Positions 3,981 through 40,856 of a stretch of 41,544 nucleotides of DNA are shown here, piece after piece. Each line of letters begins with the position of its first letter. Position 1 is the stretch's first letter. Under the pieces are notes generated by a model that was given only the letters and a program-made list of their open reading frames with translations, did not search any database and was not told the DNA's origin. The position numbers and the translations under genes were made by a program. Origin of the DNA: a virus; the IMG/VR virus record IMGVR_UViG_3300042890_006316, positions 1 to 41,544 of that record; one strand, 5' to 3'.

Positions 3981-3989
3981 AAAAATTAA

Positions 3990-3995
3990 TATATA
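3990..3995 (+). promoter_or_regulatory. Candidate promoter TATATA box
   Basis: TATATA lies 25 nt before the ATG at 4015 and just before AAGGAG. It is one of a series of TATATA boxes at unit heads. AT-rich background weakens the case. Confidence 0.25.
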
Positions 3996-4014
3996 ATTAT
4001 AAGGAGCTAATTAT

Positions 4015-5793
4015 ATGTTGACCTTTGATGAATTTCGTGGCATTTATAAAGAAGATGCCACGATTGGACCAGATATTTCAAAAATTATTGACCAAATGGT
4101 TGATGATTGGGCTGGTGAATTAAAAAGAGAAATAATCACAGGCGCAAAACCAGCCAAAAGAGGCATGTGGGACCGATTCAAGAATCTTCTTTCTAATGTT
4201 TGGTATGGTAGACATAATCCAGACAATCCATACCAATGGATAAATAAATATGGTGATGTTTTAGGACAAAGTGTTCCTAAAACAGAAGGAATAAGAGAAG
4301 AAACATTACAACTTTCACTCAATGATTATAAAAATTTGCGTGAAGTCTGTGAAAATCTTGAAAACCAAATCAATGAAGAAAATCTCCCAGAAGGAACTCC
4401 AAATCTCAGAATTATTCAAATAATTGATAGTCACGCAAATATTCTCAAGCAAAAATTAAAAGATATATTTGCTAAAGAACCAGATAAAAAATATGAAATG
4501 CCAAAAATTAGCTACTCGCTCACCCCAGAAGAAGAAAAAATTGTCCGTCCTAAAAATATAAAACCAATTATCATTGACAACGAAAAAGAAAAAGAAAAAG
4601 AAAAAGAAAAAGAAAAAGAAAAACCGCCAAGCACAAAGGCAAATCCTAAGGTAAATCCTGCTGATTTAGAACCCAAATTTGACTACGCAAAGCCACCAAC
4701 TAAAGAAAAACAATGGCATGAATTAACAACTCAAGAAAAAGATGCATGGAACATCTATGGCGGCGGAGTTTCAGAAAGAAGTGCAAGAATTGGATCTCTT
4801 GCTGCACAACATGGCGTTGATTATCCAATGATTTTAAGATTGGGTGATCCAAGAATAGAAATGCTAAAAAGAATTTTACCAACACAAAAAAATAAAAATA
4901 AATCTGTTTATGATCATTTAAAAGATCATTTAAGAATTGAATTAGAAAACGATCCAATTTTATCAAGAAGAGAACTTGAAAAAAGAGTTGATGCACTGAA
5001 AAAACAAAGACAAAGGGAGCCTTTAAGTACTGGTAATTTCCCTGTATTTAGCAATAAACTTAAATATATAAACAGATTTAGACAGCCTATGGAGCCAAAA
5101 GATTCTAAAGAATCTGACTCTAAAGAATCTGACTCTAAAAATACAAGTCCAGAAATAAGAACAAGAAGTTCATTTAGGCCAACAGAAGAGCCATCAAAGA
5201 AGGCGCAAGAAGAGCCATCAAAGAAGGCGCAAGAAGAGCCATCAAAGAAGGCGCAAGAAGAGCCATCAAAGAAGGCGCAAGAAGAGCCATCAAAGAAGGC
5301 GCAAGAAGAGCCATCAAAGAAGGCGCAAGAAGAACCAGCAAAGAAAGCGCAAGAAGAACCAGCAAAGAAGGCGCAAGAAAAAACATCAAAGAATGCAAAA
5401 GAAGAAATGGAAAAAATAGAATCTAGAAAGAAGAGGCATCTTGATTCAATAGCAGATGATTTAATTTATCATAAAATGATGACTGATGAATTAAACGATC
5501 TCAGGATGAAATTTCCAGATTCACAAAAAGAAATTTTGTCAAAAATCAAATCAGTAATAAAAAACAATCTTAATAATTCAAACTTTTTCCAATCAACAAT
5601 AGACAAATATAAAGAAAAAATCGATAAAGCAGATTCATTCAAAGATATTCATGAAATTATTCAAGGCGTTATTCATAAAATTGATTTAGAGGAAGAAGAA
5701 GAAGAAAAAAGAGAATCATTTTATTTAAAAATGACGCCAAAAAATTTCGCTAAAAATATCGTAATGAAATTTAGAAATAATTGTCATGGCTGA
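4015..5793 (+). CDS. Large charged repeat protein with capsid-targeting-like N-terminus
   Basis: 592 aa. The N-terminus MLTFDEFRGIYKEDA resembles the T4 internal-protein capsid-targeting sequence (MKTYQEFIAEA). Residues about 1-165 look globular and helical. A run of seven Glu-Lys pairs (about 190-203) follows, then a Lys-rich helical region (about 225-360), then nine near-identical 8-residue repeats EPSKKAQE/EPAKKAQE (about 391-462), and a helical C-terminal region ending in an acidic patch (EEEEEEKRE). SD AAGGAG precedes the ATG. Very high Lys and Glu content and the linker-like repeats suggest an elongated protein, possibly packaged with DNA in the head. No catalytic motif is recognised. 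It converges on the minus-strand gene at 5784, overlapping it by 10 nt. Confidence 0.6.
   Translation: MLTFDEFRGIYKEDATIGPDISKIIDQMVDDWAGELKREIITGAKPAKRGMWDRFKNLLSNVWYGRHNPDNPYQWINKYGDVLGQSVPKTEGIREETLQLSLNDYKNLREVCENLENQINEENLPEGTPNLRIIQIIDSHANILKQKLKDIFAKEPDKKYEMPKISYSLTPEEEKIVRPKNIKPIIIDNEKEKEKEKEKEKEKPPSTKANPKVNPADLEPKFDYAKPPTKEKQWHELTTQEKDAWNIYGGGVSERSARIGSLAAQHGVDYPMILRLGDPRIEMLKRILPTQKNKNKSVYDHLKDHLRIELENDPILSRRELEKRVDALKKQRQREPLSTGNFPVFSNKLKYINRFRQPMEPKDSKESDSKESDSKNTSPEIRTRSSFRPTEEPSKKAQEEPSKKAQEEPSKKAQEEPSKKAQEEPSKKAQEEPSKKAQEEPAKKAQEEPAKKAQEKTSKNAKEEMEKIESRKKRHLDSIADDLIYHKMMTDELNDLRMKFPDSQKEILSKIKSVIKNNLNNSNFFQSTIDKYKEKIDKADSFKDIHEIIQGVIHKIDLEEEEEEKRESFYLKMTPKNFAKNIVMKFRNNCHG
4582..4623 (+). 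repeat. GAAAAA hexanucleotide run (Glu-Lys x7)
   Basis: Seven perfect copies of GAAAAA inside the gene at 4015, encoding an alternating Glu-Lys stretch. Perfect DNA identity indicates slippage-type expansion. Confidence 0.9.
5185..5400 (+). repeat. 24-bp tandem repeat, nine copies
   Basis: Unit GAAGAGCCATCAAAGAAGGC plus GCAA. Copies 1-6 are identical, copies 7-8 carry GAACCAGCA (Ser to Ala), and copy 9 is degenerate (EKTSKNAK). It encodes a charged, probably helical or extended linker. Copy number probably varies between relatives. Confidence 0.95.
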
Positions 5794-9696: not shown

Positions 9697-10143
9697 ATGG
9701 CGACTCTAACTGTGTCTCATTACATATATTTGTCAAGAGAGCAAAGATATGAATTGAATGATGGCAAGGATATTGAAATAGTTGGCATTTGTGTTCCCGT
9801 TTGGTTTCAGAAAGGCAATACCAGCGAACCTGCCCAAGAAATATTTTGTAAATATAAAATTTCAAATAAAAAAACAGGAGCTAATGTCAAGCAAATTGAC
9901 GAGGGATTTGATATATCTATGCCAAGTTTGGAATTTGAAGATGAGAAAACTAATGAGGAAACAAAAAAAATTGTCCAAAAAAAGCTTGGAACAGCGGAAA
10001 ATCTTCTAGACTTGAAAGATGGTGGACAAGAAATTTGTGAATTTAGAATTTATCAGAAATTACAAGTAAAAAATGAATTGCACCATCTTGTTCATTTTAT
10101 TGAAATTAAACCAATTGAAATTTTGATGGATAGTGTTAATTAG
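9697..10143 (+). CDS. Hypothetical protein
   Basis: 148 aa with SD GGAGG 7 nt before the ATG. The N-terminal part looks beta-rich (TLTVSHYIYLSREQRYEL, DIEIVGICVPVWF). A charged Lys/Glu helix lies in the middle (about 88-110) and a final strand pair closes it (ELHHLVHFIEIKPIEILMD). No signal peptide or recognised motif. Its last codons overlap the converging tail-like gene by 4 nt. Its placement opposite an exported protease does not reveal a function. Confidence 0.6.
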   Translation: MATLTVSHYIYLSREQRYELNDGKDIEIVGICVPVWFQKGNTSEPAQEIFCKYKISNKKTGANVKQIDEGFDISMPSLEFEDEKTNEETKKIVQKKLGTAENLLDLKDGGQEICEFRIYQKLQVKNELHHLVHFIEIKPIEILMDSVN

Positions 10144-10649
10144 GGACAATCATGCAGTCTAAGTGACATTTTCAAGTTAACAGTGTCTCCAGAGGCAAAT
10201 GTAATTGAGGAGCTTAATGGAGCAGAAGAAATGAGAATGCCTGTGTTGTCTGCTGTTGTTGCCATGAATAGTTTGCTTACAGGACCAAATCCAGAACCAG
10301 ATCCAGTGAAAATTAAAATTGGACTTGTGGCTCTATAAATTCCTTCTACTGATTCAATTGTAAAACCTGAAACAGAGCTAACAGATTGTCTTGAATAACC
10401 ACCAGTTTCTGGTTCATCAACAAGAGATGATATTGTATCTGATATTTGTATTGTTGCTCTATTGTCTAATCCAAAATGATAAGTTTCAGGAACTACAGAT
10501 CCATCGTTTGAAAAACATGCAGTAAGTAAAAATGCTTCTCCAAATTGATGTAAAGTATTTTTAATGTTTCTATCTTCCCAAATTACTTTTCCATCACGAA
10601 TGTGTTGAATATAATCAATTTTAAGAATACCACGCCATGGATCAGTCAT
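10140..10649 (-). CDS. Probable tail/virion structural protein
   Basis: 169 aa, last gene of the terminase-led minus-strand operon, coupled by a 4-nt ATGA overlap to the 2H phosphoesterase gene. It opens with WRGILKIDYIQHIRDGKVIWEDRNIKNTLHQFGEAFLL, a pattern common in phage tail or baseplate-associated proteins (a strand pair, then an N-x-L-x-x-x-G-x-x-x-L helix). A Ser/Thr/Gly-rich beta region follows and ends in VNLKMSLRLHDCP. No catalytic motif. The virion assignment is by composition and context. Confidence 0.55.
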   Translation of the reverse strand: MTDPWRGILKIDYIQHIRDGKVIWEDRNIKNTLHQFGEAFLLTACFSNDGSVVPETYHFGLDNRATIQISDTISSLVDEPETGGYSRQSVSSVSGFTIESVEGIYRATSPILIFTGSGSGFGPVSKLFMATTADNTGILISSAPLSSSITFASGDTVNLKMSLRLHDCP

Positions 10650-11182
10650 TTGTTTTTCCCTAATTTAAATTTGTGTTCTTTGCCTTGATGTGAAAAAATT
10701 AAATCTTGAACAGTAAATGTTTTACCATCAAAGTATGTATTATTCAATAATTTTTCTCCGAGACCCTTCTTTAAATAACAAATTGTCACATGCGGCAAAT
10801 AAATTGAGTAATAAGGATTGTGTTCTATAGAGTTTCCAAGATTTTGATTTATTTTTTTTATGGCATCATTAGTTATTTCAACATGTAAAACATCAAATTT
10901 ACTGTTCATTGTAAAAATTTTAATTTTACCAAGTTTGCAATCAAAATAATTTTCCGCCTCAACAATGTCTTTTATTTTTTTGATATTTTTTAATTTTATA
11001 TCACTCAAAACAGTAGCATGTATATTGTGAACTCTACCATAATAATCATTTTCTGTGTATAAATGATTATCTGATATAAAATCATATGCCCATGAAATTA
11101 TTTCATCGGATAAATTATCTGTTACTTCTGCCAAAATATAATTCTTATCCAAATACATTTTGCAACTCATTGTTTTCTTCAT
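10646..11182 (-). CDS. 2H phosphoesterase (2'-5' RNA ligase-like)
   Basis: About 178 aa. Two HxT motifs spaced about 100 residues apart, IHATVL and PHVTICYL, define the 2H superfamily (2'-5' RNA ligase/cyclic phosphodiesterase). Phage members can hydrolyse 2'-5' oligoadenylate or cyclic nucleotide signals, or heal tRNA ends. The start is uncertain: ATGs at 11182, 11170 and 11158 are all in frame (a TTG at 11194 is also possible), and all overlap the end of the 11145-11480 gene. The stop overlaps the next gene. Possible roles are countering nucleotide-based defence or RNA repair; the sequence does not distinguish them. Confidence 0.8.
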   Translation of the reverse strand: MKKTMSCKMYLDKNYILAEVTDNLSDEIISWAYDFISDNHLYTENDYYGRVHNIHATVLSDIKLKNIKKIKDIVEAENYFDCKLGKIKIFTMNSKFDVLHVEITNDAIKKINQNLGNSIEHNPYYSIYLPHVTICYLKKGLGEKLLNNTYFDGKTFTVQDLIFSHQGKEHKFKLGKNK

Positions 11183-11480
11183 CGCTATCTGCAATTTTAG
11201 GAAGATTGCGACGATTTTTTATTTGTTCAAGTTTTATCATTGTGTCATTCAGTTCTTTATCAATTATTTTTAATGTATTGATATGACCAAATCCATTTTG
11301 AACTACATTCTTCTTTTTAACTTGATTTACTTCTCTGATATTTCTTTTCTTTTCAATATTTTCAACAATGCCAATTGCCTTGTTGATTAATATTTTAACT
11401 TCCTGTAATGCAAAATCATTTGGAGAATGTGTTAAGGCTCGATAAAGATAATTTTTTAATTCTTCGGTATTATTTTTCAT
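11145..11480 (-). CDS. Small helical/coiled-coil hypothetical protein
   Basis: 111 aa, very rich in Lys, Asn, Glu and Ile, with heptad-like hydrophobic spacing in residues 20-50 and 68-92, so mainly helical. The N-terminus (NYLYRALTHSPNDFALQEVKILINKAI) reads as a helical hairpin. Coupled by ATGA to 11477-12457 upstream and overlapping the 2H gene downstream. Its place two genes behind the large terminase and its size would suit a small terminase or a packaging accessory, but nothing in the sequence proves that. Confidence 0.6.
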   Translation of the reverse strand: MKNNTEELKNYLYRALTHSPNDFALQEVKILINKAIGIVENIEKKRNIREVNQVKKKNVVQNGFGHINTLKIIDKELNDTMIKLEQIKNRRNLPKIADSDEENNELQNVFG

Positions 11481-12457
11481 GGAGTTGCACCTTTGATTAA
11501 TTCAATCCAACGCACATTGGCATCTTCCAAAAGTTGATATCCAGTCACATCGCCTTCTTGGGTTGTTTTGACAAGACTACTATAATCAATTTTAACCTTC
11601 CAAAGATCCTGACCTTCATAAAATGGCTTGTTTTGCAATAAAGTTCCTTGTGGAATAAATGCTTTTATTCCTAATGCCACATCTCTTTTTTTTCTTTCAA
11701 AGAAATCCCTTAAATTTTCTGGCTTGCTCATGTAAAGCGTCATTATTTGTTTTATTTTTGGACTTTCTTTTAATCTATTAAGCAAATTATCAATTTGATC
11801 CCTCATTTTTTGCGGCATTTCTGTAAAAATCACAGTTGTAACATCAAGGTTTTCATTTTTTTTATTCATGTCAAAATGTGCTTGAAAATATTCACCAATA
11901 CTAATTCTAGCACTATCAACAATCCAATCATCTGTTGGAATCAAAGCTTCGATAAATATTGGATGATTATCCCACGCTATTGACTCAATGATTTTTTCAA
12001 TTTTAAAAGCCATTTCTCCTAAGACATTTCTAGATTTATCCACTAGCGAAAAAATGGTCAAATCTACATCTTTGGGATCAATTTTTTTAAGCATTAAATT
12101 TAATTGATATTTCCAGAATGCAGACTCAACAAACTTCAAAATTTCAGTGTCTTTTGAATTAAGGTAAAGCCAATTATCAAACTTTTGAATTTGTCTTGCG
12201 ATATTATCTGTTTGCCCATTTTCTAAACAAATAGAAAATGATTCAATGTATGGATAGCCAATTTCCAATAATGATTTTTTTATTTTTGTAACATCAATTG
12301 TTTTCTTTAAGGCATCTTGATAAATTGGACTATTTTTTAACACAAGTCCTGATAGGTTACTCATTAAATGTTCACGATATGCATCAAGACAAAGAACAAC
12401 ACTTGGTTGACTTTGTTTTTTATTTTCAACAAATTCTGAGTATTTTTTAAACAACAT
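11477..12457 (-). CDS. Hypothetical protein in terminase operon
   Basis: 326 aa, starting 2 nt after the terminase stop, so co-transcribed and probably coupled. TATAAATA abuts its ATG. The N-terminus MLFKKYSEFVENKKQ has the Phe/Tyr-x-x-Phe spacing seen in the capsid-targeting-like starts of other genes here, though less clearly. The rest is mixed alpha/beta with many Lys and Ile and no recognised catalytic motif (segments such as FIEALIPTDDWIVDSARISIGEYFQAHF and DVTTVIFTEMPQKMRDQIDNLLNRL). The C-terminus (ANVRWIELIKGATP) reads as a beta strand end. Function unknown; a packaging or virion role fits the operon. Confidence 0.6.
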   Translation of the reverse strand: MLFKKYSEFVENKKQSQPSVVLCLDAYREHLMSNLSGLVLKNSPIYQDALKKTIDVTKIKKSLLEIGYPYIESFSICLENGQTDNIARQIQKFDNWLYLNSKDTEILKFVESAFWKYQLNLMLKKIDPKDVDLTIFSLVDKSRNVLGEMAFKIEKIIESIAWDNHPIFIEALIPTDDWIVDSARISIGEYFQAHFDMNKKNENLDVTTVIFTEMPQKMRDQIDNLLNRLKESPKIKQIMTLYMSKPENLRDFFERKKRDVALGIKAFIPQGTLLQNKPFYEGQDLWKVKIDYSSLVKTTQEGDVTGYQLLEDANVRWIELIKGATP

Positions 12458-12459
12458 AT

Positions 12460-14361
12460 TTATAAACCATTATACAGTGACCAACCAAATATTATCCAAT
12501 TGATTGCCCAGCCAAATTCACGAAGTAATCGATCACTTTTTCTTTCTGGAATGTAAGTAAAACCAGAAGTATAGTTATCTTTTTCTGGGGCCAAAAGATC
12601 AACATCATCTTCTGATAACAAATCTTCTGGCGAACCTTCAAGCAACTCCCTTTTAATTTCTTCGTAAACTTGACTTTTAACAATTTGCATTGCTTCTTTT
12701 GGTCTTTCTGCTCCCATAGGTAAATCACGCAAAAGTGTGTCACGAGTGTAAAGACCAATGCACATAGCCATTATGGAATCATCATGTTTGCCTTTTTGAG
12801 CTTGTGCTTTTCTAGTTACTTTATTATACTCAAATGTTTGTAATTCGCATACAAATCTTGAACTATTAATTCTTACTGTTTCATTGGTCAAACGATTCTG
12901 CAACGATTCTAAATATAAAGGTCTTGTAGTCGAACTCATTTTTATGCCGGGTTTAGAATTTACAGATTTTGTGTTTTCATAATGTAAGTTGTCATAGTAT
13001 AAAGTATGCTGTAAAGAACTTAAAACTGCTCCTCCCGGTCCCATATTTTCAACAACAACCAATGCATTATTATAATAAGTGGCTACTTCATTAATTACTT
13101 GTGCAAATTCATGAGGGATAACCGTGTTGGAATAAAATTCAACAACTTGTTCAAGAGTTGCAGTATCAATGATTTGAAAAACACTACTATCATTATTATC
13201 GCCTTGACCTTCAGCACAATCCGCAGCAAGAATATATTCATGACCATCAACTGGTTCTTTCCAAACCCACATCGCACCACGATTTTGGTCACTTTCAAGC
13301 TGCGCCACTCTACCAGTTTGATTTGCCCATTTTGAATACAATTTTCTACTTGGAAAATTATTTCTTGTTTGTTCAGTCAAACTTGTAATAATTTTTGCAG
13401 TAAAATAAGTTTCACCCGAACCTTGAAACTCACGCAAAACTTCCTGACGAAAACCTTTTTCACCCAACTGTGCTTTTTGCTCTGCAACCCATTTCTCATC
13501 GTTATAATCAGGATGCTCCCAATAATCCAAATCTATAATGTGAAATTTATTTAATTTCTCTTTAGCTTCGTGATATGTTTGCTCATACCAGTTTCCCAAA
13601 CCATTTACAGTAGAAATTAAGGTGCAAGAACCACCTGTTGAAAGAATCGGCCACATAGCCTTCCAATGTCTTTCCATGTCGTCAATGAACGCACATTCGT
13701 CTACTATGAGAAATGTAACTGATTTACCACGAGCAGCTTCAGGCGAATAAAACTTCAAAGCCGAACCAGTATCAGTAAACATTTTTAAATGGTCATTCCA
13801 TTTGGCGTCTTTTCTAGGCTTTAACCACTCAGGCATATTTTCACAACTCTTATCAATCATCATCCCAATATCTGTAGCTTCTCGGTCAGTTTTAGATAAA
13901 AGCATAATTTGTTGATCAAGCTGAAACATGCATCTCCACAAACCCCACAAAAGAGTCACAGTCGTAAGACCTCCCTGTCGGAATTTGCTGATAATGTTAA
14001 ATCGGTAATTCTCATAATCAGAAATAGTTTTTCTCTGATATTTAAATAATACAAAAGGAATAAGACCACGCATTGGGTGAAGAATTTTTACATATTTGTG
14101 ACAAAAATAAGAAAAACTATCAGCACATTTAATTAATTCTTTCTTGCGCCTAATAGGATCATATTTCTCTAAGTTCTCAAATGGTTCATCAGGATCTATC
14201 TGAATTTCATACTTGTCAAAATAATAATATTGTGGATCATACTGGATTCTTCCAGTGTCAATGTCAATATTACCACCCAAATTGTAATATTCCTCCAAGC
14301 TTTTAAACTTAGATCTCCAAACAGATTGCTTTACACTTTTGAAATATTTTGGTTCTTCCAT
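12460..14361 (-). CDS. Large terminase subunit (gp17-like)
   Basis: 633 aa, similar to T4 gp17 (610 aa). It is the ATP-driven motor and nuclease that packages DNA into the prohead through the portal. ATPase domain: Walker A FRQGGLTT (127-134, the RQxG type of T4-like terminases), Walker B FLIVDE (217-222), coupling motif STVNG (250-254). RNase H-like nuclease domain: Asp381 in AADCAEGQGD, Glu438 in VVVENMG and the Asp pair in KHDDSIMAM (527-528). No intein is present. The ATG at 14361 lacks an evident SD, but the N-terminus is well formed. A TATATA box lies about 65 nt upstream. It heads a five-gene minus-strand operon. Confidence 0.97.
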   Translation of the reverse strand: MEEPKYFKSVKQSVWRSKFKSLEEYYNLGGNIDIDTGRIQYDPQYYYFDKYEIQIDPDEPFENLEKYDPIRRKKELIKCADSFSYFCHKYVKILHPMRGLIPFVLFKYQRKTISDYENYRFNIISKFRQGGLTTVTLLWGLWRCMFQLDQQIMLLSKTDREATDIGMMIDKSCENMPEWLKPRKDAKWNDHLKMFTDTGSALKFYSPEAARGKSVTFLIVDECAFIDDMERHWKAMWPILSTGGSCTLISTVNGLGNWYEQTYHEAKEKLNKFHIIDLDYWEHPDYNDEKWVAEQKAQLGEKGFRQEVLREFQGSGETYFTAKIITSLTEQTRNNFPSRKLYSKWANQTGRVAQLESDQNRGAMWVWKEPVDGHEYILAADCAEGQGDNNDSSVFQIIDTATLEQVVEFYSNTVIPHEFAQVINEVATYYNNALVVVENMGPGGAVLSSLQHTLYYDNLHYENTKSVNSKPGIKMSSTTRPLYLESLQNRLTNETVRINSSRFVCELQTFEYNKVTRKAQAQKGKHDDSIMAMCIGLYTRDTLLRDLPMGAERPKEAMQIVKSQVYEEIKRELLEGSPEDLLSEDDVDLLAPEKDNYTSGFTYIPERKSDRLLREFGWAINWIIFGWSLYNGL

Positions 14362-25254: not shown

Positions 25255-27783
25255 ATGCCACCAGTATGGACCGACTTTTTCAAATTATTTAATTATAGCG
25301 CCGAGCCAGATCCATTGGCTCGACGTAAAGATCCTCGTCAATTTACTTCTGCTGGCATCAGCCAGCCAGAAGCATTGGGATCTGATATTAACAATGGTCA
25401 AGTTAGCGGAGGAATGTCCAGCTATCGCCAGACCAATGACATGATTGACACAACAACACTGTCAAATCGTGCCATGAGATATAAAGAATACGAAAGATTA
25501 AGGAATGTTCCCGAAATTGAAATGGCAATGACCGTATACGCAGACGAAGCTTGTGTCGCAGGTGACACCAAAATTGCCACTCCTTTCGGCTTCATAACAA
25601 TTAAAGAATTAACAGAAAATAAATCTGAAGAACGATTTCTTGTTTATTGCTACGACTTTGATACAAAAGATTATACACTAGGATGGGCATTCGCCCCTAG
25701 AAAAGTAAAAACAGCACCAACAATTAAAATAACCCTAGACAACGGCACAACATATACAGCAACAAGCGATCATAGAGTTCTTCTTAAAAACGGACAATGG
25801 ACAGAAACAGGAAGCCTTAAATTCGGCGATGAATTAATGCCTTTTTATAGAATATCCACTAGCATAAGACACAAAAAAATAAGACAAGGTCAATACCCCA
25901 AAATCCTAAGCACAAATAAAGGCTGGATTAATGAAAAACAATTCATAGAAGATTGGAAAACAGGAAAAACAAGCCGTGATTATCAAATTCTAAATCGTGC
26001 TTGCCGTATGATTGCTGGCGGTCTAACTACCAGACAAATATCCCAAAAATTGGAAATGGATTGGCACACCATTGAAGATAGAATGTACAGAGAAGGATTT
26101 TCACACAAATCAATAATACAACTGGAAACCATGGGCGAGACAAGACGTGTCGTAGGCGTCAGCCCCGGACAAGAACAAGATGTATACGATATTTCAGTAG
26201 AAAAACATAAATGCTTCGCCACAGATTCAGTTATTCTACACAATTGCCAACGTGACGAAAATGGAAATATCTTCAAGATTACAACTGATAATCAAGACGT
26301 TAAAGAAGAAATAGAATTCTTAATGCTCAACAGAAAAATGCTTAATCTTAATCGCCATGGCTGGACTTGGTTCAAAAATCTTTGTATTTCTGGCGATCAT
26401 TTTTTGGAAATTGTAATTAATCCAGAAAATCCAAAAGAAGGAATTTATCGCTGCCTGTCTCTGCCACCAGAAACAATGTATCGCATAGAAACTGTCAAAA
26501 GCAGAGTTATCGAGTTCCAACAAAGCAAAGAAGGACCTGACTACCAAGCAATCGTAAGAGGATCTCCTACAGAACTAACTGATACAGAATTAGGACAAAC
26601 AACTGCAATCAGATTCGCACCAAGTCAAATTATTCACTTTAGAATCGGCGATGATAGAAAAACATTTTATCCATATGGACAAAGCTTAATTGAACCCGCC
26701 CGTGCTCCAGCACATAGTCTTCGACTTATGGAAGACGCAATGGTCGTTTACCGTTTAGTTAGAGCGCCTGAAAGACGTGTTTTTTATATCGATGTAGGTC
26801 AACTTCCACCATTCAAAGCTGAAGCATTCATGGATAGACTTAAAGATCAATTCCGTAAAAGAAAAATTGCAAACAACAGCGGAAATGGCGGAGCAAACCA
26901 AGTAGATGAAAGATGGATGCCACCCGCTCAAGATGAAGATTACTGGCTTCCTATTCGTCCAAATAGCGGAACAAGAATCGATACATTGCCGGGAGCAGAA
27001 AATCTCGGTGAAATAGATGATGCAGTATATTTCCGTAACAAATTACTAACTGCCCTCAATTTCCCTAAAAACTATTTCAACAACGAAGATCCCGGCGCAA
27101 CAAGGATAACACTTAGTAGCCAAGATGTAAAATTCGCCAGAATGATCGAAAGACTTCAAAGCCACTTTGAAGACGGTCTTCTCGAACTAGCAGAACGACA
27201 CCTTCAACTAAGAGGATTTCCCGAAGAACATTATCGTGACCTAAGAATAAAAATGACACCCCCAAGCGATTGGAGAGAACTGTCCAGAGCAGAAGTCGTC
27301 AACGCACGCTATGGAAACGCTGGAACACTAAAAAGCAGCCAACTTATGTCAGATTATGACATAATGATTAAAATTCTTAAATATCAAAACGATGACGCAG
27401 AAGAAATGCTCGCCAGACTAAAAATTCAAAAACTCGAAGACCTCAAACTACAAGTCCTCGCACAAAACCCACAACTCCTCGGCGTTGGAATTCCCGGCCA
27501 AGAAGAAGGCGGCGAACAAGAATTGGGCGATAAAGAAGGTGGACCAAACACACAACCAGAACCAGAAGGAACACCACCACCAGAAGGACAACCTCCCGAA
27601 GGATTACCTCCAGAAGGAATGCCTTCACCTACAGCAGGAGAAGCAGATAAAGCATCAGCCGCTCAACCAGCAAATATTCCCGATGCAACCGAAAATGATA
27701 TCAAAAAATTTGACCTTGAACTTCAAGATTATGAATCTGAAGCAGATATCGAAGACATTGACTACAGCGTGACAGACCGATGA
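25255..27783 (+). CDS. Portal protein (gp20-like) with in-frame intein
   Basis: 842 aa as translated, about 611 aa after removal of the 231-residue intein (100-330). Portal proteins form the ring through which DNA enters the head. Extein N-part ends in NVPEIEMAMTVYADEA, the conserved gp20 segment; the C-part resumes CQRDENGNIFKI and continues with typical gp20 blocks (DDRKTFYPYGQSLIEPAR, RAPERRVFYIDVGQLP, FFNNEDPGATR-like RNKLLTALNFPKNYF). The C-terminal 90 residues are Pro/Glu/Gly-rich. SD is weak (AAGGTAAATT). It heads the head operon. Its stop overlaps the zinc-ribbon gene start by 4 nt. Confidence 0.95.
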   Translation: MPPVWTDFFKLFNYSAEPDPLARRKDPRQFTSAGISQPEALGSDINNGQVSGGMSSYRQTNDMIDTTTLSNRAMRYKEYERLRNVPEIEMAMTVYADEACVAGDTKIATPFGFITIKELTENKSEERFLVYCYDFDTKDYTLGWAFAPRKVKTAPTIKITLDNGTTYTATSDHRVLLKNGQWTETGSLKFGDELMPFYRISTSIRHKKIRQGQYPKILSTNKGWINEKQFIEDWKTGKTSRDYQILNRACRMIAGGLTTRQISQKLEMDWHTIEDRMYREGFSHKSIIQLETMGETRRVVGVSPGQEQDVYDISVEKHKCFATDSVILHNCQRDENGNIFKITTDNQDVKEEIEFLMLNRKMLNLNRHGWTWFKNLCISGDHFLEIVINPENPKEGIYRCLSLPPETMYRIETVKSRVIEFQQSKEGPDYQAIVRGSPTELTDTELGQTTAIRFAPSQIIHFRIGDDRKTFYPYGQSLIEPARAPAHSLRLMEDAMVVYRLVRAPERRVFYIDVGQLPPFKAEAFMDRLKDQFRKRKIANNSGNGGANQVDERWMPPAQDEDYWLPIRPNSGTRIDTLPGAENLGEIDDAVYFRNKLLTALNFPKNYFNNEDPGATRITLSSQDVKFARMIERLQSHFEDGLLELAERHLQLRGFPEEHYRDLRIKMTPPSDWRELSRAEVVNARYGNAGTLKSSQLMSDYDIMIKILKYQNDDAEEMLARLKIQKLEDLKLQVLAQNPQLLGVGIPGQEEGGEQELGDKEGGPNTQPEPEGTPPPEGQPPEGLPPEGMPSPTAGEADKASAAQPANIPDATENDIKKFDLELQDYESEADIEDIDYSVTDR
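25552..26244 (+). other. Intein inside portal protein
   Basis: Residues 100-330 of the 25255 product. Block A CVAGDTKIATPFG with catalytic Cys1; block B GTTYTATSDHRVLL (TxxH); block F VYDISVEKHKCFATDSVIL; block G HN followed by Cys+1. All splicing residues are intact. The 231-residue length exceeds a mini-intein (about 130-160). The extra segment (about 195-300) contains a predicted helix-turn-helix, LTTRQISQKLEMDWHTIEDRMYREGF, but no LAGLIDADG or HNH motif that I can see, so the homing nuclease may be degenerate or of another type. Confidence 0.92.
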
Positions 27784-32026: not shown

Positions 32027-33463
32027 ATGAACGCTAATTCTAGATTTTTGAACGAGGCTAGGGAGCTAGAAACTCGTTGGAAGCAGACCGGACTCCTCGA
32101 AGGCATTCAGGATCGATACGTCCGCTCAGCTACCGCAGTTCTGCTCGAAAACCAGAGACTCATGAACGAAGTCTCAACCGATACTGGCGATGTTGCACAG
32201 TTCAAGAGGATCTCAATTCCTCTCGTCCGTCGTATCTATCCACAGCTTATCGCTAACAAAATCGTATCAGTACAGCCATTGCTCGGCCCAACCGGCTTGG
32301 TTTACTACCTCCGCTTCCGCTATTCCAGCAACAAGGGTGCTACCCGTGGCGCTAGCAATATCGGCGGTTTCCCCGGTGATGATGCAAACTCACTGATGCA
32401 GAGAGCCGATGGTACTGCAAACCTCGACATCTTCTACACCAGCCAGTTCATCCAGAACGAAACAAGCTCAACTGACGCTGGAGCAGGCGTACAAAGCGTG
32501 TTCGCTCCTCTTGAACACACACCAGTTCTCGCAGGCACAATGACAGGCACAATCTATGATGGCGCAACCGCTATCCAGACATTTACCGTATCAGCTGGCG
32601 GAACTTTCACCTTCTCAGATATCGGCACACCTTCACCAAAGGTAACAAGCGGTACTCTTGGAACCACAACTGGCGAACTAGTCCTTAACTGGAACGGCGC
32701 TCCCGGTAGCAATAACGTAGTTGTCTCCTATGAGTACAACATGGAATGTAACCAAGATCTCCCTGAAATCAACCTCGTCGTTGAATCAGAAGAAATCGCT
32801 GCTAAAACCCGTAAGCTCAAGGCTGTATGGTCCTATGAAGCACAGCAAGATCTCCGCTCACAGCACAATCTTGACGCTGAAGCTGAACTAACCGCTGTCC
32901 TCGCTCAGGAAATCAACCTCGAAATCGACCGTGAAGTCCTCACCGACCTTCGTAACAACGCAGGTACTGTCTCTGCTTGGGACTTCAACACCGCACTCGG
33001 CGAAACCATCAAGGAAAAGTACGAATCCCTTTATGTTAAGGTCGTAGAAATTTCCAACGTCATCCATCGTAAGACTCTTCGTGGTGGCGCTAACTGGATC
33101 GTAACAAGCCCAGAAGTTGCTTCAATCTTTGAAACAGCTACAGCTGGCTTCGCTCCTGCTCCTTCCGAAACCTTCACCTCAAGCCTCGGCATCCAGTATG
33201 TCGGCACAGTGAACAATCGCTGGAGACTCTACAAAGATCCTCTCTTCCCAAGCAACCAGTTGCTAATGGGTTATAAGGGCGATAGTTACATGGACAGCGG
33301 TTACTTCTACTGCCCATACGTTCCTCTCACCCAGACACCAGTTGTTCTCGATCCTGAGAGCTTCTGCCCACGCAAGGGAATTCTCACACGCTATGGCAAA
33401 AAGTTGCTTCGTGAGGGGGCAAAATTTTACGCACGCCTCAGTATTGCTAATTTCGTCATCTGA
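32027..33463 (+). CDS. Major capsid protein (gp23-like, HK97 fold)
   Basis: 478 aa; T4 gp23 is 521. It follows the scaffold gene by 35 nt. T4-like landmarks: the start NANSRFLNEARELETRW, then IPLVRRIYPQLIANKIVSVQPLLGPTGLVYYLRFRY (65-99), a beta insertion with Ser/Thr/Gly strands (about 165-238), EEIAAKTRKLKAVWSYEAQQDLRSQH, and the C-terminal block NWIVTSPEVASIFE to GKKLLREGAKFYARLSIANFVI. Candidate gp21 cleavage at LLE|G (Glu25) or LNE|A (Glu10); the first would leave about 453 aa. Codons are C-ending and GC-richer than neighbours, fitting high expression. Strong terminator at 33496. Confidence 0.97.
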   Translation: MNANSRFLNEARELETRWKQTGLLEGIQDRYVRSATAVLLENQRLMNEVSTDTGDVAQFKRISIPLVRRIYPQLIANKIVSVQPLLGPTGLVYYLRFRYSSNKGATRGASNIGGFPGDDANSLMQRADGTANLDIFYTSQFIQNETSSTDAGAGVQSVFAPLEHTPVLAGTMTGTIYDGATAIQTFTVSAGGTFTFSDIGTPSPKVTSGTLGTTTGELVLNWNGAPGSNNVVVSYEYNMECNQDLPEINLVVESEEIAAKTRKLKAVWSYEAQQDLRSQHNLDAEAELTAVLAQEINLEIDREVLTDLRNNAGTVSAWDFNTALGETIKEKYESLYVKVVEISNVIHRKTLRGGANWIVTSPEVASIFETATAGFAPAPSETFTSSLGIQYVGTVNNRWRLYKDPLFPSNQLLMGYKGDSYMDSGYFYCPYVPLTQTPVVLDPESFCPRKGILTRYGKKLLREGAKFYARLSIANFVI

Positions 33464-33495: not shown

Positions 33496-33522
33496 GAAAA
33501 CCCCGGAAAAACCGGGGTTTTC
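33496..33522 (+). terminator. Intrinsic terminator after major capsid gene
   Basis: 11-bp stem GAAAACCCCGG / CCGGGGTTTTC with loop AAAAA, followed by CCTTTTT; the strongest GC stem in the window, ending the head operon. Confidence 0.95.
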
Positions 33523-33632
33523 CCTTTTTACAAGCATCTAAATATTTTCTCAAAATTGCTGAAAAAATCCTTGATTTCTAAAATTTGCTTACTATAATAC
33601 CTTTGTGGGGCAATAAGAAAAAGAGGTGTTAA

Positions 33633-35159
33633 ATGGAACCAAACATCATCGTGATGAGTGAGTTAAATCAGAACAAGCATTGGGCTAAGGAAGTCCTTGA
33701 AGTTGCCCGTAAAATAAATCCTAATTCATTCCTTTTCTATAAACATGAATTCATAAAAAAAGAACAACAGATCAAATCACATGTTAATTCATATACAAGC
33801 AACAACATGAGATCGGTTTTTGCAAGAAAATGCAAAGTAACAGCAATTGAAACTGATGTGATGAGAAAATTCTGTAATAAATATCACATTCAAGGAGCAA
33901 ACACCCTTGCGATTATTGCATTTGGAATATTTGAAGGAGATGAGCTTCTAGGAGTTCTTTCTTTGGGCAGACATCATCGTAACAATGAAGATGTTTTGCT
34001 TGATAGGATGTGTTTTAAGAATAGTGTAAGGGTAGTTGGTGGAGCCAGTAAATTATTTAATGCTGCTTTAGTTTGGGCAAAAGCTCAAGGAATCGATAAG
34101 ATAATCAGCTTTAGTGATAATCGTTACAGTCTTGGAACTGTTTATGATAAACTCGGCTTTACTTTAGAAAGTGAATTAGTTCCTGATTACTTTTATGTTG
34201 AGCGTGAAAACATTGAAAAAGCTTACAGCAAACAAAGTCAAAAAAAGCAAAATGTTGACTGTCCAGAAGGACTGACAGAAAGGGAATGGGCAGAAGAAAG
34301 AGGTTTGGTTCAGGTTTATGACGCTGGAAAAAAGCGTTGGATATACAAAATTAGGAAAGTTGTTACAAATTCATTTGCTACTCGCAGGCATGGTTTTTAT
34401 GAAACTAAAAAAAGCAGACCAAAAACAATTTATTATCAATCAAGCTATGAGTTAAGAGCAGCAACAATACTTGACAACGATGAAGCTGTTGATTTTTATA
34501 CTACTCAAGTTACAGCTTCTATTGACGGAAGGGAAAGAATTATTGATTTTCTCGTTACATACAAATCTGGCGTTGTTTCAATAATTGAAGTCAAACCAAG
34601 ACTCAAAATAGAAGCATGTAAGCAACAAATTGAAGACAACAAGAAAATTGCTTGTGAAAACAGTTGGAGATTCCAGTTGTGGACAGAGAAAGAACTGGGA
34701 TTTGATTCTGAATACAAAGCTGTTTGTTGGGCTGACATGTTTCTTTCAGAAATACAAGGAATTGATTATGTTGAAGAAAGAAGAGATCGTCACAATGAAA
34801 GTGTGAAAAAACATTACAAAAAACATATAGCTACAAAAACTGTAGAAGTCCCCTGTGTCTTCTGTAATGAGGTTCATATGGCTTTGAGGCTGACTTATGA
34901 CAAGAACATAGCTAGGAATGGGCGATACATTTGTGAGCGTGAGGGAGGGCATATAGCTGGCAGCAAACCCAAATTGAGTTTGAGGAAAGATAACCCTTAT
35001 TCATCTGATGGCAAGAAGGAATGTAATAAGTGTAAGGAAGTTAAATTATTTGAGCAATTTAGTCCTGACAAGAGCAAGCGTGATGGATATTGTACTATGT
35101 GTAAGCCTTGTCGTTCTGAGAAGATGAAGGCTAGTTATGCGAAGAAGAAAGAGGCATGA
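33633..35159 (+). CDS. GNAT + TnsA-like nuclease + zinc ribbon fusion (homing-endonuclease-like)
   Basis: 508 aa in three parts. (1) About 66-190: a GNAT-like fold, with the recurring phage segment VVGGASKLFNAAL..IISFSDNRYSLGTVYDKLGFTLES..PDYFYV, common in phage proteins annotated as homing endonucleases. (2) About 265-355: PD-(D/E)XK nuclease of TnsA type, YYQSSYELRAA (Glu273), RIIDFLVTY (Asp305), SIIEVKP (Glu319, Lys321), FQLWTEKELG. (3) About 405-493: zinc ribbons Cys408-x2-Cys411 and Cys464-x2-Cys467 ... Cys487-x2-Cys490. SD AAAGAGGTG. It sits between the capsid terminator and the methylase, whose ATG overlaps its stop. Likely a mobile nuclease. Confidence 0.8.
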   Translation: MEPNIIVMSELNQNKHWAKEVLEVARKINPNSFLFYKHEFIKKEQQIKSHVNSYTSNNMRSVFARKCKVTAIETDVMRKFCNKYHIQGANTLAIIAFGIFEGDELLGVLSLGRHHRNNEDVLLDRMCFKNSVRVVGGASKLFNAALVWAKAQGIDKIISFSDNRYSLGTVYDKLGFTLESELVPDYFYVERENIEKAYSKQSQKKQNVDCPEGLTEREWAEERGLVQVYDAGKKRWIYKIRKVVTNSFATRRHGFYETKKSRPKTIYYQSSYELRAATILDNDEAVDFYTTQVTASIDGRERIIDFLVTYKSGVVSIIEVKPRLKIEACKQQIEDNKKIACENSWRFQLWTEKELGFDSEYKAVCWADMFLSEIQGIDYVEERRDRHNESVKKHYKKHIATKTVEVPCVFCNEVHMALRLTYDKNIARNGRYICEREGGHIAGSKPKLSLRKDNPYSSDGKKECNKCKEVKLFEQFSPDKSKRDGYCTMCKPCRSEKMKASYAKKKEA

Positions 35160-35830
35160 AAATGTGGGGATATTATGGTAGTAAATCGAAGGTTGCGGGG
35201 AAATATCCTGTTCCACGTTATTCAAAAATAATAGAGCCATTTGCTGGTACTGCCCAATATTCCTTATTGTATTGGGATCGTGAAGTTCATTTGATTGAGA
35301 AGTATGAATTGTTGGTTAATTTGTGGAAATGGTTACAGAAATGTAGCAAGGAAGATATTTTATCGACAAGGCGTTTGAAGTTTGGTGAATCTACGGATAA
35401 TTTTGAGTGGGATTGTCAGGAGAGAAAGGATTTGGTTGGTTTTATCATAACAGGAGCACCATCTATGCCGAAGAAGACAGCATCGAGATGGAAAACAGTA
35501 GTTCGTCCTAACACACAAGATTATAAGTTACAGTATATTGCTGAAAATTTGGAAAAGATTAGGCATTGGAAAATTGATTTAGGTGATTATAGAGATGTTG
35601 AAAATTGTGAGGCGACATGGTTTATTGATCCGCCATATTATGTGGGTGGAAAATATTATAAGCATGGAAGCAAGTTGATTGATTATGATATTTTGGGTAC
35701 ATGGTGTAAGGATAGGATGGGTCAGGTGATTGTTTGTGAGTCAGATGGAGGAACTTGGTTGCCATTTGAACCTTTAACTGAATCGAGAGGCAACAAGAAT
35801 GTTTACAAGGAATATATTTGGTTAAAGTGA
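35156..35830 (+). CDS. DNA adenine N6-methyltransferase (Dam/D12 class)
   Basis: 224 aa. Motif I IIEPFAGTAQYS (25-36) binds S-adenosylmethionine and motif IV FIDPPY (156-161) is the catalytic DPPY. The N-terminal YYGSKSKVAGKYP matches the D12-class K-[YW]-x-GSK start. It methylates adenine at N6 in DNA. Its ATG overlaps the nuclease stop (ATGA), giving coupled translation of a nuclease-methylase pair. A second in-frame ATG at 35162 is possible. Recognition site cannot be read. Role could be self-protection from the neighbouring nuclease or from host restriction. Confidence 0.9.
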   Translation: MKMWGYYGSKSKVAGKYPVPRYSKIIEPFAGTAQYSLLYWDREVHLIEKYELLVNLWKWLQKCSKEDILSTRRLKFGESTDNFEWDCQERKDLVGFIITGAPSMPKKTASRWKTVVRPNTQDYKLQYIAENLEKIRHWKIDLGDYRDVENCEATWFIDPPYYVGGKYYKHGSKLIDYDILGTWCKDRMGQVIVCESDGGTWLPFEPLTESRGNKNVYKEYIWLK

Positions 35831-35911
35831 TTAAGAAGAAGAAAGAGGCTTGAAAAAAGAATAATTTTCACCAAATTGGCATAGTAAAATTACTAAATAT
35901 TTGTTGATTTG

Positions 35912-35919
35912 TATAAATA
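35912..35919 (+). promoter_or_regulatory. T4 late promoter box TATAAATA (exact)
   Basis: Exact T4 late consensus in the 141-nt gap 35831-35971, 60 nt before ATG 35972. The gap holds no gene. Confidence 0.5.
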
Positions 35920-35971: not shown

Positions 35972-36331
35972 ATGGGAGCTACATCAGCCACAGGAGTCGG
36001 TAAGGGAGCAGCAGGTGTTACCCGTGGTCCCGGCAATAATCGCAATCAGTTTTCATCTTTGCTTGATCCACACATTGTTTTTCACGGAACTGCTTTCGCT
36101 GATGGTGGTAATGTACAGATTGATTTGCCATCAAGTGTTTACGATATTCCTCAAAATTTGACTCTTCTTTGTTCAACACAGGCATTTCTTGCTGAGAAAC
36201 TTCTAAACGGAGACAATATTTGCACTGGATTTAGAGTATATACTTACAAGAAAGCTGATTTGGATTATGTCATCATTAAGAGTCCAAGTGGAAAATTTAC
36301 TCCACTTGATGATGTCAGCACAAACGATTGA
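35972..36331 (+). CDS. Small probable virion protein
   Basis: 119 aa, SD AAGGAG 6 nt before the ATG and an exact TATAAATA late box 60 nt upstream, so likely expressed late and strongly. N-terminus is Gly/Ala/Thr-rich and flexible (GATSATGVGKGAAGVTRGPGN); the rest is beta-rich (HIVFHGTAFADGGNVQIDLPSSVYDI, GFRVYTYKKADLDYVIIKSPSGKF). Size and composition fit a head-decoration or small structural protein. No family recognised. Confidence 0.6.
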   Translation: MGATSATGVGKGAAGVTRGPGNNRNQFSSLLDPHIVFHGTAFADGGNVQIDLPSSVYDIPQNLTLLCSTQAFLAEKLLNGDNICTGFRVYTYKKADLDYVIIKSPSGKFTPLDDVSTND

Positions 36332-36358: not shown

Positions 36359-36754
36359 ATGGAAATTAAGATTGTTAAGAATGAAAAAAACGTCGAAATT
36401 ATTCGTGCTGTGGAAAATAAAGGTGTAGCCACATTATCTTCGGATCAAAATTCTGGAGTTAGAATGGGCAAAATTTCCAACAAAGTTTTAGAGAGAATAG
36501 GTGGTCTTGAAACTTTTGTAAGGCGATTTAATAGACTGTATTCTAATACTAAATTAAAATTTACATTAGTTGATCCAGCGGCACCAGAAGTTGCACCAGA
36601 AGTTGCACCAGAAGTTGCACCAACACCAGAACCAGAAGTTGCACCAACACCAGAACCAGAAGTTGCACCAACACCAGAACCAGAAGTTGCACCAACACCA
36701 GAACCAGAAGTTGCACCAACACCAGAACCAGAAGTTGCACCAGCGCAGGGTTGA
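36359..36754 (+). CDS. Small protein with EVAPTPEP repeat tail
   Basis: 131 aa, SD AAGGAGG. Residues 1-72 form a compact-looking domain (EIKIVKNEKNVEIIRAVEN, basic helix ISNKVLERIGGLETFVRRFNRLYSNTKLKFTLV). The remaining tail is two EVAP units, five EVAPTPEP units and a last EVAP, a proline-rich, acidic, extended linker like TonB-type spacers or surface stalks. No signal peptide. It follows 35972 by 27 nt, probably the same transcript. Function unknown. Confidence 0.6.
   Translation: MEIKIVKNEKNVEIIRAVENKGVATLSSDQNSGVRMGKISNKVLERIGGLETFVRRFNRLYSNTKLKFTLVDPAAPEVAPEVAPEVAPTPEPEVAPTPEPEVAPTPEPEVAPTPEPEVAPTPEPEVAPAQG
36587..36742 (+). repeat. 12/24-bp tandem repeat encoding EVAP(TPEP)
   Basis: GAAGTTGCACCA (12 bp) twice, then five identical 24-bp units GAAGTTGCACCAACACCAGA plus ACCA, then one more 12-bp unit. 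Perfect identity suggests recent expansion. Confidence 0.95.
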
Positions 36755-39330: not shown

Positions 39331-40074
39331 ATGGAAAAGCCTAAGTGGACGATAGGAACTGTGAATTGGAAGTCAATTGATTTCGTTGAATATCAGTTGA
39401 AATATTTTCATGAGTTTTCTGATGATTTTGAATTTTTAGTTTGTGATAATGAAAGTAATATTGAGACACAGAAATTCAAGGATCTTAAAGAGAAATATCC
39501 AAAATTGAAATGGGTTAATTCACAATGGAGGAATAGTGGTTGGGGGTCACATGGAATTGGTCTTAATCAATGTATGAAGAGGGCAGAGGGTAGATATATT
39601 TTGTTAATGGACCCAGATTTTTTTTGGATGAAGAAAAATATATTGTCATTTTTAGAAACATATTTTGAATGTGGATATCATGCTGTTGGGACAGAATATG
39701 CTGGAACTGACTTTCCGATGCCTTGGGGTGCAGCTTATATTACTGATGAAATCAGGGATTTGAATTTAATGGCAAAATCTTCTTTTTGCGAGAAATATGG
39801 AACGTGGGTATATGATAGAGATTATGATACTGGTTGGCAAATTAGAATAAGGCTTGGAAATAAACCTCATCAGGCGTTTAGACAGGTTCTTAATCAAGTG
39901 CCAGATTTGGGAAGATACAATACTGGATACTCACAAACATATGTTTATGACACAAAAGTTATTGCTCATCACTTAAAAGGTGGAAGTCAAATAGAGGGAT
40001 CTTATACGGAAGAGCAGATTTTAGAAATTAGGGGTAAATACACAGAATGGATGTGGAGTCAATTATACGATTGA
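39331..40074 (+). CDS. GT-A glycosyltransferase, paralog 1
   Basis: 247 aa. GT-A/family 2-like layout: N-terminal strand KWTIGTVNWKSIDFVEYQL, FEFLVCDNES, then ILLMDPDFFWMKK with the DxD-type metal/donor motif (MDPD), and FPMPWGAAYITDEIRDL as acceptor-side motif. No signal or membrane segment. First of three tandem paralogs (40104, 40863). AATAAATA is 4 nt before the ATG and no SD is seen. Donor and acceptor unknown; likely virion, DNA or host-surface glycan. Confidence 0.8.
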   Translation: MEKPKWTIGTVNWKSIDFVEYQLKYFHEFSDDFEFLVCDNESNIETQKFKDLKEKYPKLKWVNSQWRNSGWGSHGIGLNQCMKRAEGRYILLMDPDFFWMKKNILSFLETYFECGYHAVGTEYAGTDFPMPWGAAYITDEIRDLNLMAKSSFCEKYGTWVYDRDYDTGWQIRIRLGNKPHQAFRQVLNQVPDLGRYNTGYSQTYVYDTKVIAHHLKGGSQIEGSYTEEQILEIRGKYTEWMWSQLYD

Positions 40075-40103
40075 TTTTAATTTTTATTTCACTAAATTAG
40101 TTT

Positions 40104-40856
40104 ATGTCGAACAAATGGACAATAGCTTTAGTCAATTGGAATTCAATTGAATTTATTGAATATCACGCTAAATTTTTCCATTCATTTTCTGATGATTTTG
40201 AATTTTTAGTTTGTGATAATACAAGGCCTTATCAGTCGGAAGAGTTAGATGTTATTGCTGAAAAGTATGAAAAAGTAAAAATTATTTATCCTGATGGTAA
40301 AAACTTATCTCATGGTGGTGGAATCAATAATTGTTTAGGTGAGGCATCAGGTAAATATATTTTGATTATGGACCCAGATTTTTTCTGGATGAAGAAGTCT
40401 ATTTTAAGAGTTTTTGAGCATTATTTTGATCAGGGTTATCATGCGATTGGAACGGAATTTTGGGATCATCCATTTCCGATGCCTTGGGGAGCAGCATACT
40501 ACACTGATGAAATTCGTGATTTAGATTGTACGGCCAGAGTTGAAAAATATTGTGATAAATGTAATAATAAGCTTTTGGACAAGTGGTCTGATACTGGTTG
40601 GGAGATAAGAGTTAGGCTGCATAATCAGCCTCATTTTGGTTTTAGAAGAGTTATGTCTAAATGTGTTCCTTATATGGGAAACCATTTTTATTCATTTAAT
40701 CCAATTAGTTTTGTATATGATGGTAATTTTATTGCTCATCATTTGATGAGGGGAGAATACAAAAACACAGATTTGCATAAAGATTTTGTCAATAATGAGA
40801 TGATTATTGCGAGAAAAAAGTATATTGAATATTTCTGGAGTAATTTACAAGATTGA
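40104..40856 (+). CDS. GT-A glycosyltransferase, paralog 2
   Basis: 250 aa, same layout: KWTIALVNWNSIEFIEYH, FEFLVCDNTR, ILIMDPDFFWMKK, FPMPWGAAYYTDEIRDL. A 36-nt stretch in the N-terminal coding region (40185-40220) is identical to paralog 1 (39415-39450), so the duplication is recent. Extra Cys pair YCDKCNNKL (about 152-160) is shared with paralog 3 (CNKCNN) but not paralog 1 and may bind zinc. Starts 29 nt after paralog 1. Confidence 0.8.
   Translation: MSNKWTIALVNWNSIEFIEYHAKFFHSFSDDFEFLVCDNTRPYQSEELDVIAEKYEKVKIIYPDGKNLSHGGGINNCLGEASGKYILIMDPDFFWMKKSILRVFEHYFDQGYHAIGTEFWDHPFPMPWGAAYYTDEIRDLDCTARVEKYCDKCNNKLLDKWSDTGWEIRVRLHNQPHFGFRRVMSKCVPYMGNHFYSFNPISFVYDGNFIAHHLMRGEYKNTDLHKDFVNNEMIIARKKYIEYFWSNLQD

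Follow-up and report, generated by a model that had tools for sequence, protein, structure and literature searches.

A probable homing endonuclease locus with exchangeable nuclease cassettes directly behind the major capsid gene of huge T4-like phages

The gene directly behind the major capsid gene in the DNA studied here is, we consider likely, part of a free-standing homing endonuclease locus aimed at the 3' end of the capsid gene, and the methyltransferase gene that adjoins it would be a recent cargo. This proposal draws on the domain make-up of the encoded protein, on presence and absence of the gene in near-identical relatives, on allele swaps with linked recoding of the capsid gene, on lateral transfer of the nuclease, and on the separability of the nuclease from its Mom-like domain and the methyltransferase, all of which were read from sequence comparisons. 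The features of the locus are as follows.

32027..33463, + strand: Gp23-type major capsid protein (MCP) gene (Pfam Gp23, E 3.5e-86).
about 33371-33460, + strand: last ~30 capsid codons, synonymously recoded between nuclease alleles (recoding comparison); presumed target region.
33496..33522, + strand: capsid transcription terminator (strong hairpin, 11 pairs plus T tail).
33571..33598, + strand: sigma-70-like promoter candidate for the nuclease gene (TTGATT-16-TATAAT; consensus match only, with a regional match count not above chance).
33633..35159, + strand: free-standing homing-endonuclease-like gene, 508 aa (PHROG homing endonuclease, E 1.5e-41; domains; conservation).
33834..34382, + strand: Mom-like GNAT domain, aa 68-250 (Pfam, PDB match, alignment, conservation).
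34392..34814, + strand: TnsA-like PD-(D/E)XK nuclease domain, aa 254-394, within the swapped cassette (Pfam relatives, catalytic residues, swap tracts).
34824..35147, + strand: zinc-ribbon module, aa 398-505, the constant gene end and right-hand crossover zone of the swaps (conservation, swap comparisons).
35141..35162, + strand: direct repeat, left copy, comprising the nuclease gene end and a putative methyltransferase Shine-Dalgarno sequence (repeat comparison).
35156..35830, + strand: predicted Dam-fold (D12-class) adenine-N6 DNA methyltransferase, 224 aa, probable cargo (fold; motifs; PADLOC MTase_II, E 3.2e-40).
35835..35856, + strand: direct repeat, right copy, 5 bp past the methyltransferase stop (repeat comparison).
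35972..36331, + strand: downstream gene d1 (ORF; behind the variable segment in loci L012, L013, L088 and L091).

The window, that is, the whole stretch of 41,544 nucleotides that was analysed, comes from IMG/VR as a 41.5-kb fragment; it belongs to a huge T4-like phage and has genes for a Gp23-type capsid protein, a T4-type portal, a prohead protease and a terminase. By capsid protein, the nearest named genome is that of the 595-kb uncultured phage LR756511 (81% identical), and capsid proteins 89% identical to that of the window occur on contigs of up to 533 kb. A T4-type late-promoter motif, TATAAATA, stands ahead of d1 at 35912-35919, and the promoter candidate ahead of the nuclease gene is conserved in L009, L012 and L017. 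No RNA family was matched in an Rfam scan of the window. Elsewhere in the window, the T4-type portal gene (Gp20, 25255-27783) carries an apparent intein at residues 114-330, about 25594-26244 (Pfam Intein_splicing, 46.9 bits against a cut-off of 35.8), in a stretch conserved in LR756511 (46%, tblastx). Other observations were a strong match to Volactin, an actin-like family, in a phage (2499-3506; Pfam PF25216, E 4.6e-63), a protein with tandem PEVAPTPE-type repeats whose number differs among relatives (36359-36754), and tandem paralogous glycosyltransferase-2 genes (39331-40856, also in L004 and L009) that differ in copy number and identity among close relatives.

The initial annotation had described a single polypeptide that joins a GNAT-like module, a TnsA-type nuclease and zinc ribbons. 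Its coordinates were exact, the GNAT module could be specified as Mom-like, the catalytic E-D-ExK residues are intact and the cysteines are conserved. PHROG assigns the N-terminal part of the 508-aa protein to homing endonucleases, and relatives of the protein are named Hef-like in GenBank. Residues 68-250 matched the Mom family PF25680 (E 1.2e-9; 38.6 bits, over the cut-off of 27.1). The Mom-like assignment of the module follows from the predicted structure of the whole protein (mean pLDDT 83, pTM 0.49), for which the top PDB match was Mom of phage Mu (8bv8, E 1.3e-9). H85, R125, D162 and Y171 were invariant in 19 of 19 homologues and align with H58, R111, D149 and Y159 of Mu Mom (241-residue numbering), which in turn were identical in all ten aligned nuclease modules; Y59 of Mu Mom is replaced by I in every one of them. 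These four Mu Mom residues are reportedly important for function, as Karambelkar and colleagues are said to have described in 2020. The position of S124 in Mu Mom falls in a gap of the alignment of ten modules; by its title, entry 8bv8 is the inactive Mu Mom mutant S124A. Judged by the Pfam and PDB matches, the module is a complete Mom-like GNAT domain, for which acyl modification of adenine in DNA would be predicted. Its conserved residues suggest enzymatic activity, and it possibly modifies adenines near the target.

For the nuclease domain, the window protein scored 24.1 against the TnsA-like Pfam family (PF08722), below the cut-off of 26.5, and its relatives in L073 (43.4) and L013 (49.5) scored above it. 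The catalytic residues E273, D305, E319 and K321 were conserved in 34-35 of 35 sense and 13 of 13 antisense homologues. In the C-terminal module, C408/C411/C434 and C464/C467/C490/C493 were conserved in 36 of 36 sequences, and 46 of 47 zinc-ribbon relatives directly followed a same-strand Gp23-type capsid gene, a distribution that makes the zinc ribbon appear almost locus-specific. Between the window and L088, dN/dS was about 0.12 for the nuclease gene and 0.10 for the methyltransferase gene, so that both genes appear to be maintained; a chance ORF or pseudogene was ruled out by this and by the conservation. Tn7-like transposition was also rejected, as a TnsB/TnsC partner is missing: no transposase or TnsC match was found among the proteins scanned, which included all those of at least 500 aa. 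Plain sequence searches of the PDB with the nuclease or methyltransferase protein returned nothing useful, and the folds were required.

The stop codon of the nuclease gene overlaps the start codon of a Dam-like methylase gene, as had been annotated; the overlap is 4 bp long (ATGA), and the methylase has a Dam fold. Its model (pLDDT 92) matched the structure of T4 Dam (E 1.1e-8), motifs X, I and IV are present, and YYGSK, EPFAG and DPPY are conserved. Against the Pfam D12 family the window protein scored 15.1, below the cut-off of 22, and its relatives in L100 and L103 scored above it. The gene is flanked by the 22-bp direct repeat listed above, with 21 of 22 positions matching and 15 bp exact, as compared with a mean of 9.8 and a maximum of 14 for the longest exact repeat in 200 shuffles. 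The right copy is a duplicate of the 3' end of the nuclease gene itself, and it is there that the near-identity of L091 with the window over the zinc-ribbon and methyltransferase block stops. In other alleles the tail position held here by the methyltransferase is filled otherwise. Behind a short nuclease, a 187-aa gene takes its place (L011 4886-5446; L092 1288-1851); by eye it resembles a second PD-(D/E)XK nuclease, and no family matches it well.

Searches with the capsid, nuclease, methyltransferase and zinc-ribbon sequences yielded more than 200 loci; about 100 related capsid loci were compared. Classes were counted on the downstream side of the capsid gene in 66 distinct capsid loci with at least 1.5 kb of downstream sequence, in a sample partly chosen through the zinc-ribbon search, so that the resulting fractions are not frequencies. 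Twenty of the 66 loci had none of these genes. A sense nuclease with zinc ribbon and Mom domain stood alone in 11, together with an antisense nuclease in four and with the methyltransferase in two; the same arrangement without a Mom domain stood alone in 15, with the methyltransferase in one and with an extra ribbon fragment in one. Antisense DUF7487+TnsA nucleases also occur at the site, in two cases with an orphan zinc ribbon behind them. Such an antisense nuclease and then an orphan zinc-ribbon fragment were seen behind the capsid gene in L013, L035 and L222, as if the front part of a sense nuclease gene had been replaced. By this comparison, several N-terminal modules are interchangeable, the Mom-like domain among them, and the nuclease can be carried without it. 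A separate case of a nuclease plus a methyltransferase behind the capsid gene is L002 (LR756508.1, a 484-kb uncultured phage), where two other homing-type genes follow directly (9768-13519): one of 570 aa with zinc fingers, a nuclease-like part and a GNAT, and one of 644 aa with zinc fingers, a Vsr-type nuclease and a C-terminal methyltransferase-like part whose motifs were recognized by eye only.

The proposal of a homing element, made in the initial annotation, gained good support from near-identical genomes that differ at this site. That annotation had suggested comparing relatives for precise presence or absence of the locus and had named universal presence of both genes as counting against its reading; presence was instead found to differ among the 66 distinct loci. 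L012, which has the nuclease and no methyltransferase gene, and L010, which has neither, differ by one clean block of 1655 bp that corresponds to the nuclease gene. Its left border lies at 33530/33531, just past the capsid terminator, a hairpin with a T-run at 33496-33522 that confirms the annotated location directly behind it. The flanks were 98.6% identical up to +70 behind the capsid gene and 99.65% identical over 2314 bp beyond. L010, L011 and L012, 99-100% identical upstream, together present three alleles: no nuclease, a short nuclease with another gene (264 aa without Mom, plus the 187-aa gene), and a long nuclease. The comparison favours loss of the nuclease in L010, since its capsid 3' end is common with those of the nuclease-bearing L012 and window, and since 32 bp behind the nuclease segment, common to L011 and L012, are missing from it. 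LR756511 was considered as an empty site and rejected; it is without both genes, but its downstream genes are unrelated, and L010 defines the empty site instead.

Other pairs differ in the nuclease itself. In L052/L053, L045/L048 and L073/L081 the two partners have the same capsid gene; the upstream DNA was 97-100% identical over 2.5-3.5 kb and the zinc-ribbon DNA 93-100% identical, with unrelated N-modules and nuclease DNA merely 48-55% alike. L091 and the window are 98-100% identical from the zinc ribbon through the methyltransferase; their nuclease DNA is 55-66% alike, and the Mom domain is absent in L091. From these swap pairs and the L091 block we delimit a variable cassette bounded by the capsid 3' end on one side and the zinc ribbon on the other, with swaps extending from the last capsid codons to where the zinc-ribbon domain begins. 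Every locus is a metagenome contig, and an assembly chimera formed at the conserved zinc ribbon could look like a swap, especially for L091, which is represented by one 4.2-kb contig; the L011 and L012 alleles were each found in two assemblies. A nuclease allele also appears in a different background: L012 and the window are about 80% identical over the 1.5 kb upstream of the capsid gene, 97% over the last 100 bp of the capsid gene, 94-100% over most of the nuclease gene, and 48% behind it. Such a profile is best read as lateral transfer of the nuclease allele beyond its genome background with a co-converted flank. In addition, L012 contains a duplicated promoter/leader-like segment of 146 bp (3063-3207 and 3909-4054, 87% identical) before two different genes of the variable region.

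The exchange of cassettes was accompanied by changes in the capsid gene. Between near-identical genomes with different cassettes, a median of 33% of the last 30 capsid codons differed, all synonymously and with 0 amino-acid changes, as compared with 1% of codons 60-150 from the capsid end; between same-cassette pairs, 0% differed at the capsid end (19 versus 7 pairs, p = 0.001, the pairs not being independent and amounting to about nine independent contrasts, about six of them with clear recoding). The sharpest case was L010/L011, with 13 of the last 30 codons and the stop codon changed and, across the 360 codons that precede the final 100, three changes. Conversely, the window and L012, which have the nuclease in common, were more alike in the capsid end and nuclease than in all other regions. 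Counting against homing, there were swaps with little recoding (L045/L048, 2 of 30 codons; L033/L038, 1 of 30; the antisense insertion L206/L215, 0), and in L198/L202 the capsid ends differed though the nuclease domain was 95% alike. Across all alleles, a partial Mantel test found no association of the last 20 capsid codons with nuclease type (r 0.02, p 0.36), because these codons are saturated; capsid codons 20-100 were associated with it (r 0.14-0.23, p 0.003-0.02). Co-conversion of a recoded target predicts the pattern at the capsid end, and passenger divergence in a transferred tract would look alike; under either reading, the sequences indicate that the nuclease and the capsid end moved together.

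We propose that a homing gene occupies a hot spot immediately downstream of the major capsid gene in this huge T4-like phage lineage. During co-infection, the nuclease would cleave a relative that lacks the allele, either at its capsid 3' end or in its intergenic region. Repair by recombination would then copy in the nuclease gene along with the neighbouring capsid 3' end, already recoded and no longer cleavable by that nuclease. In a recipient with a rival nuclease, the capsid gene and the common zinc-ribbon sequence would serve as two homology arms, such that the exchange replaces the N-terminal module and nuclease domain and leaves the zinc ribbon and everything behind it in place. The Dam-like methyltransferase would have hooked in at the 3' tail of the nuclease, within its transcript. 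A fuller picture, which may be correct but which we hold tentatively, is that of a constant and variable homing locus: the zinc ribbon would be a fixed docking arm, and rival cassettes, some of them Mom-armed, would displace one another behind the capsid gene of one phage population, each bringing a resistant recoded capsid 3' end, with modification or nuclease cargo joining at the 3' tail.

Three other explanations were weighed against homing. The proteins might serve a momylation-type restriction-modification or interference system, in which adenines of the phage would carry a mark set by the Mom-like domain and any unmarked DNA, from the host or from rival phages, would be destroyed by the fused nuclease. 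The Mom domain is real, with H, R, D and Y conserved in 19 of 19, and Mom-REase fusions of jumbo phages have been predicted to be restriction systems (Iyer et al. 2021, PMC7824862). However, about half of the distinct sense loci have the nuclease without Mom (15 plain NUC-ZnR versus 11 Mom-NUC-ZnR in the main classes), so the nuclease is evidently tolerated without it, and Mom domains are also paired with nucleases that are quite unlike this one (L026, L070). Site-specific swaps and capsid recoding are, moreover, unexpected from a general restriction enzyme, and we regard this explanation as unlikely. In a type II system the restriction and modification genes are co-inherited and the modification gene is required; here the nuclease occurs with and without the methyltransferase and with and without Mom, so that neither is needed for self-protection. 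The alternative of a phage restriction-modification system, raised in the initial annotation, is unsupported since nuclease, Mom domain and methyltransferase are inherited separately, and as the main explanation it was ruled out by how freely the three separate. Protection by the Mom-like domain or the methyltransferase is possible, and by analogy with gp210 of PhiPA3, a homing endonuclease that harms a rival phage (PMC11620839), the homing nuclease may additionally harm rivals.

The nuclease and the Dam-like methyltransferase could also form a dedicated pair, a homing restriction-modification element whose methyltransferase shields the target. The stop/start overlap fits this, as do the match to PADLOC MTase_II, the joint movement of zinc ribbon and methyltransferase in L091 and of the whole pair between the window and L009, and L002, another huge phage with a nuclease fused to a methyltransferase-like domain (by eye) behind its capsid gene. 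Yet the methyltransferase was present in only 3 of the 66 loci, and behind both long and short nucleases with differing nuclease domains (L091). The 96% identical nuclease of L012 and L017 is accompanied by a mere remnant, further downstream; these two loci and L010 retain just the last 33 methyltransferase codons. Among 80 relatives of the methyltransferase, the nuclease-adjacent ones all belonged to the window's own cluster, and one other had a Mom/GNAT-type gene nearby. A dedicated pair is therefore quite improbable. Rarity at the locus, recurrence of the nuclease without it, and relatives almost never beside such a nuclease all make the methyltransferase behave as cargo, a probable recent and partly lost passenger; that the element carries its own modification enzyme, as first annotated, is right as anatomy. 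It is just as doubtful that the site is an ordinary recombination hot spot, at which conserved capsid and zinc-ribbon DNA recombine often and nucleases no longer drive the exchange. Every crossover does lie in conserved DNA, and many changes of cassette and downstream gene occur at the same place, but invariant catalytic residues and a dN/dS of about 0.1 indicate that the nucleases are kept active, the exchanged part is nearly always the nuclease, and a single nuclease allele is now found in phages whose genomes are about 80% identical, a sign of its spread. When the published idea of Mom-nuclease fusions as restriction systems is put to the test, the comparison points instead to homing, with modification as an optional module.

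The locus offers a natural allele series in which one homing nuclease would take the place of another at a single essential gene, in phages whose genomes are nearly identical. We found no direct report of it in the open-licence literature, and in the literature searched we came across no description of capsid-linked nucleases of this family that form a series in which the zinc ribbon stays constant, the Mom/nuclease cassettes are exchangeable and the capsid gene is recoded in step. The closest parallels are the T4-type free-standing homing endonucleases (SegA-G, MobA-E; Hef of phage U5), which likewise are stand-alone nuclease genes beside essential late genes, with presence/absence and co-converted flanks. 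T4 segD is also capsid-adjacent, located between genes 23 (capsid) and 24 (PMC2988022). They differ in having GIY-YIG or HNH nucleases in place of a TnsA-like PD-(D/E)XK domain with a Mom-like domain. SegD has been reported not to home (Sokolov 2018, as cited in PMC10448857), which, by analogy, counts against the homing reading here; segD is antisense, unlike the window nuclease, which lies on the strand of the capsid gene. The Mom-REase fusions (PMC7824862) resemble the window protein in joining a Mom-family GNAT to a restriction-fold nuclease in a T4-like large phage, and differ in that the nuclease here also occurs without Mom at the same locus, in a comparative pattern that suggests homing.

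For the methyltransferase, T4 Dam and the D12-class enzymes provide a likeness in fold and motifs, although the window's 224-aa protein is divergent in sequence and is located as cargo behind a homing gene. As a passenger it can be compared with the antitoxin genes that moraphages pair with homing endonucleases (PMC12619734). Homing genes that cluster near capsid genes and swap domains through homology have been described (PMC10448857), and the HEG-islands and shuffled T5orf172/HNH homing genes of ICP1-like phages share with the present locus the position near capsid genes, interchangeable nucleases and homology-driven domain swaps. An HEG-island consists of essential genes bracketed by at least two homing genes that move them, and our comparison concerns the downstream side of the capsid gene. 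In contrast to the ICP1-like genes, the nucleases here belong to another family, and their alleles form a series across near-identical genomes, in which the capsid 3' end is synonymously recoded along with them.
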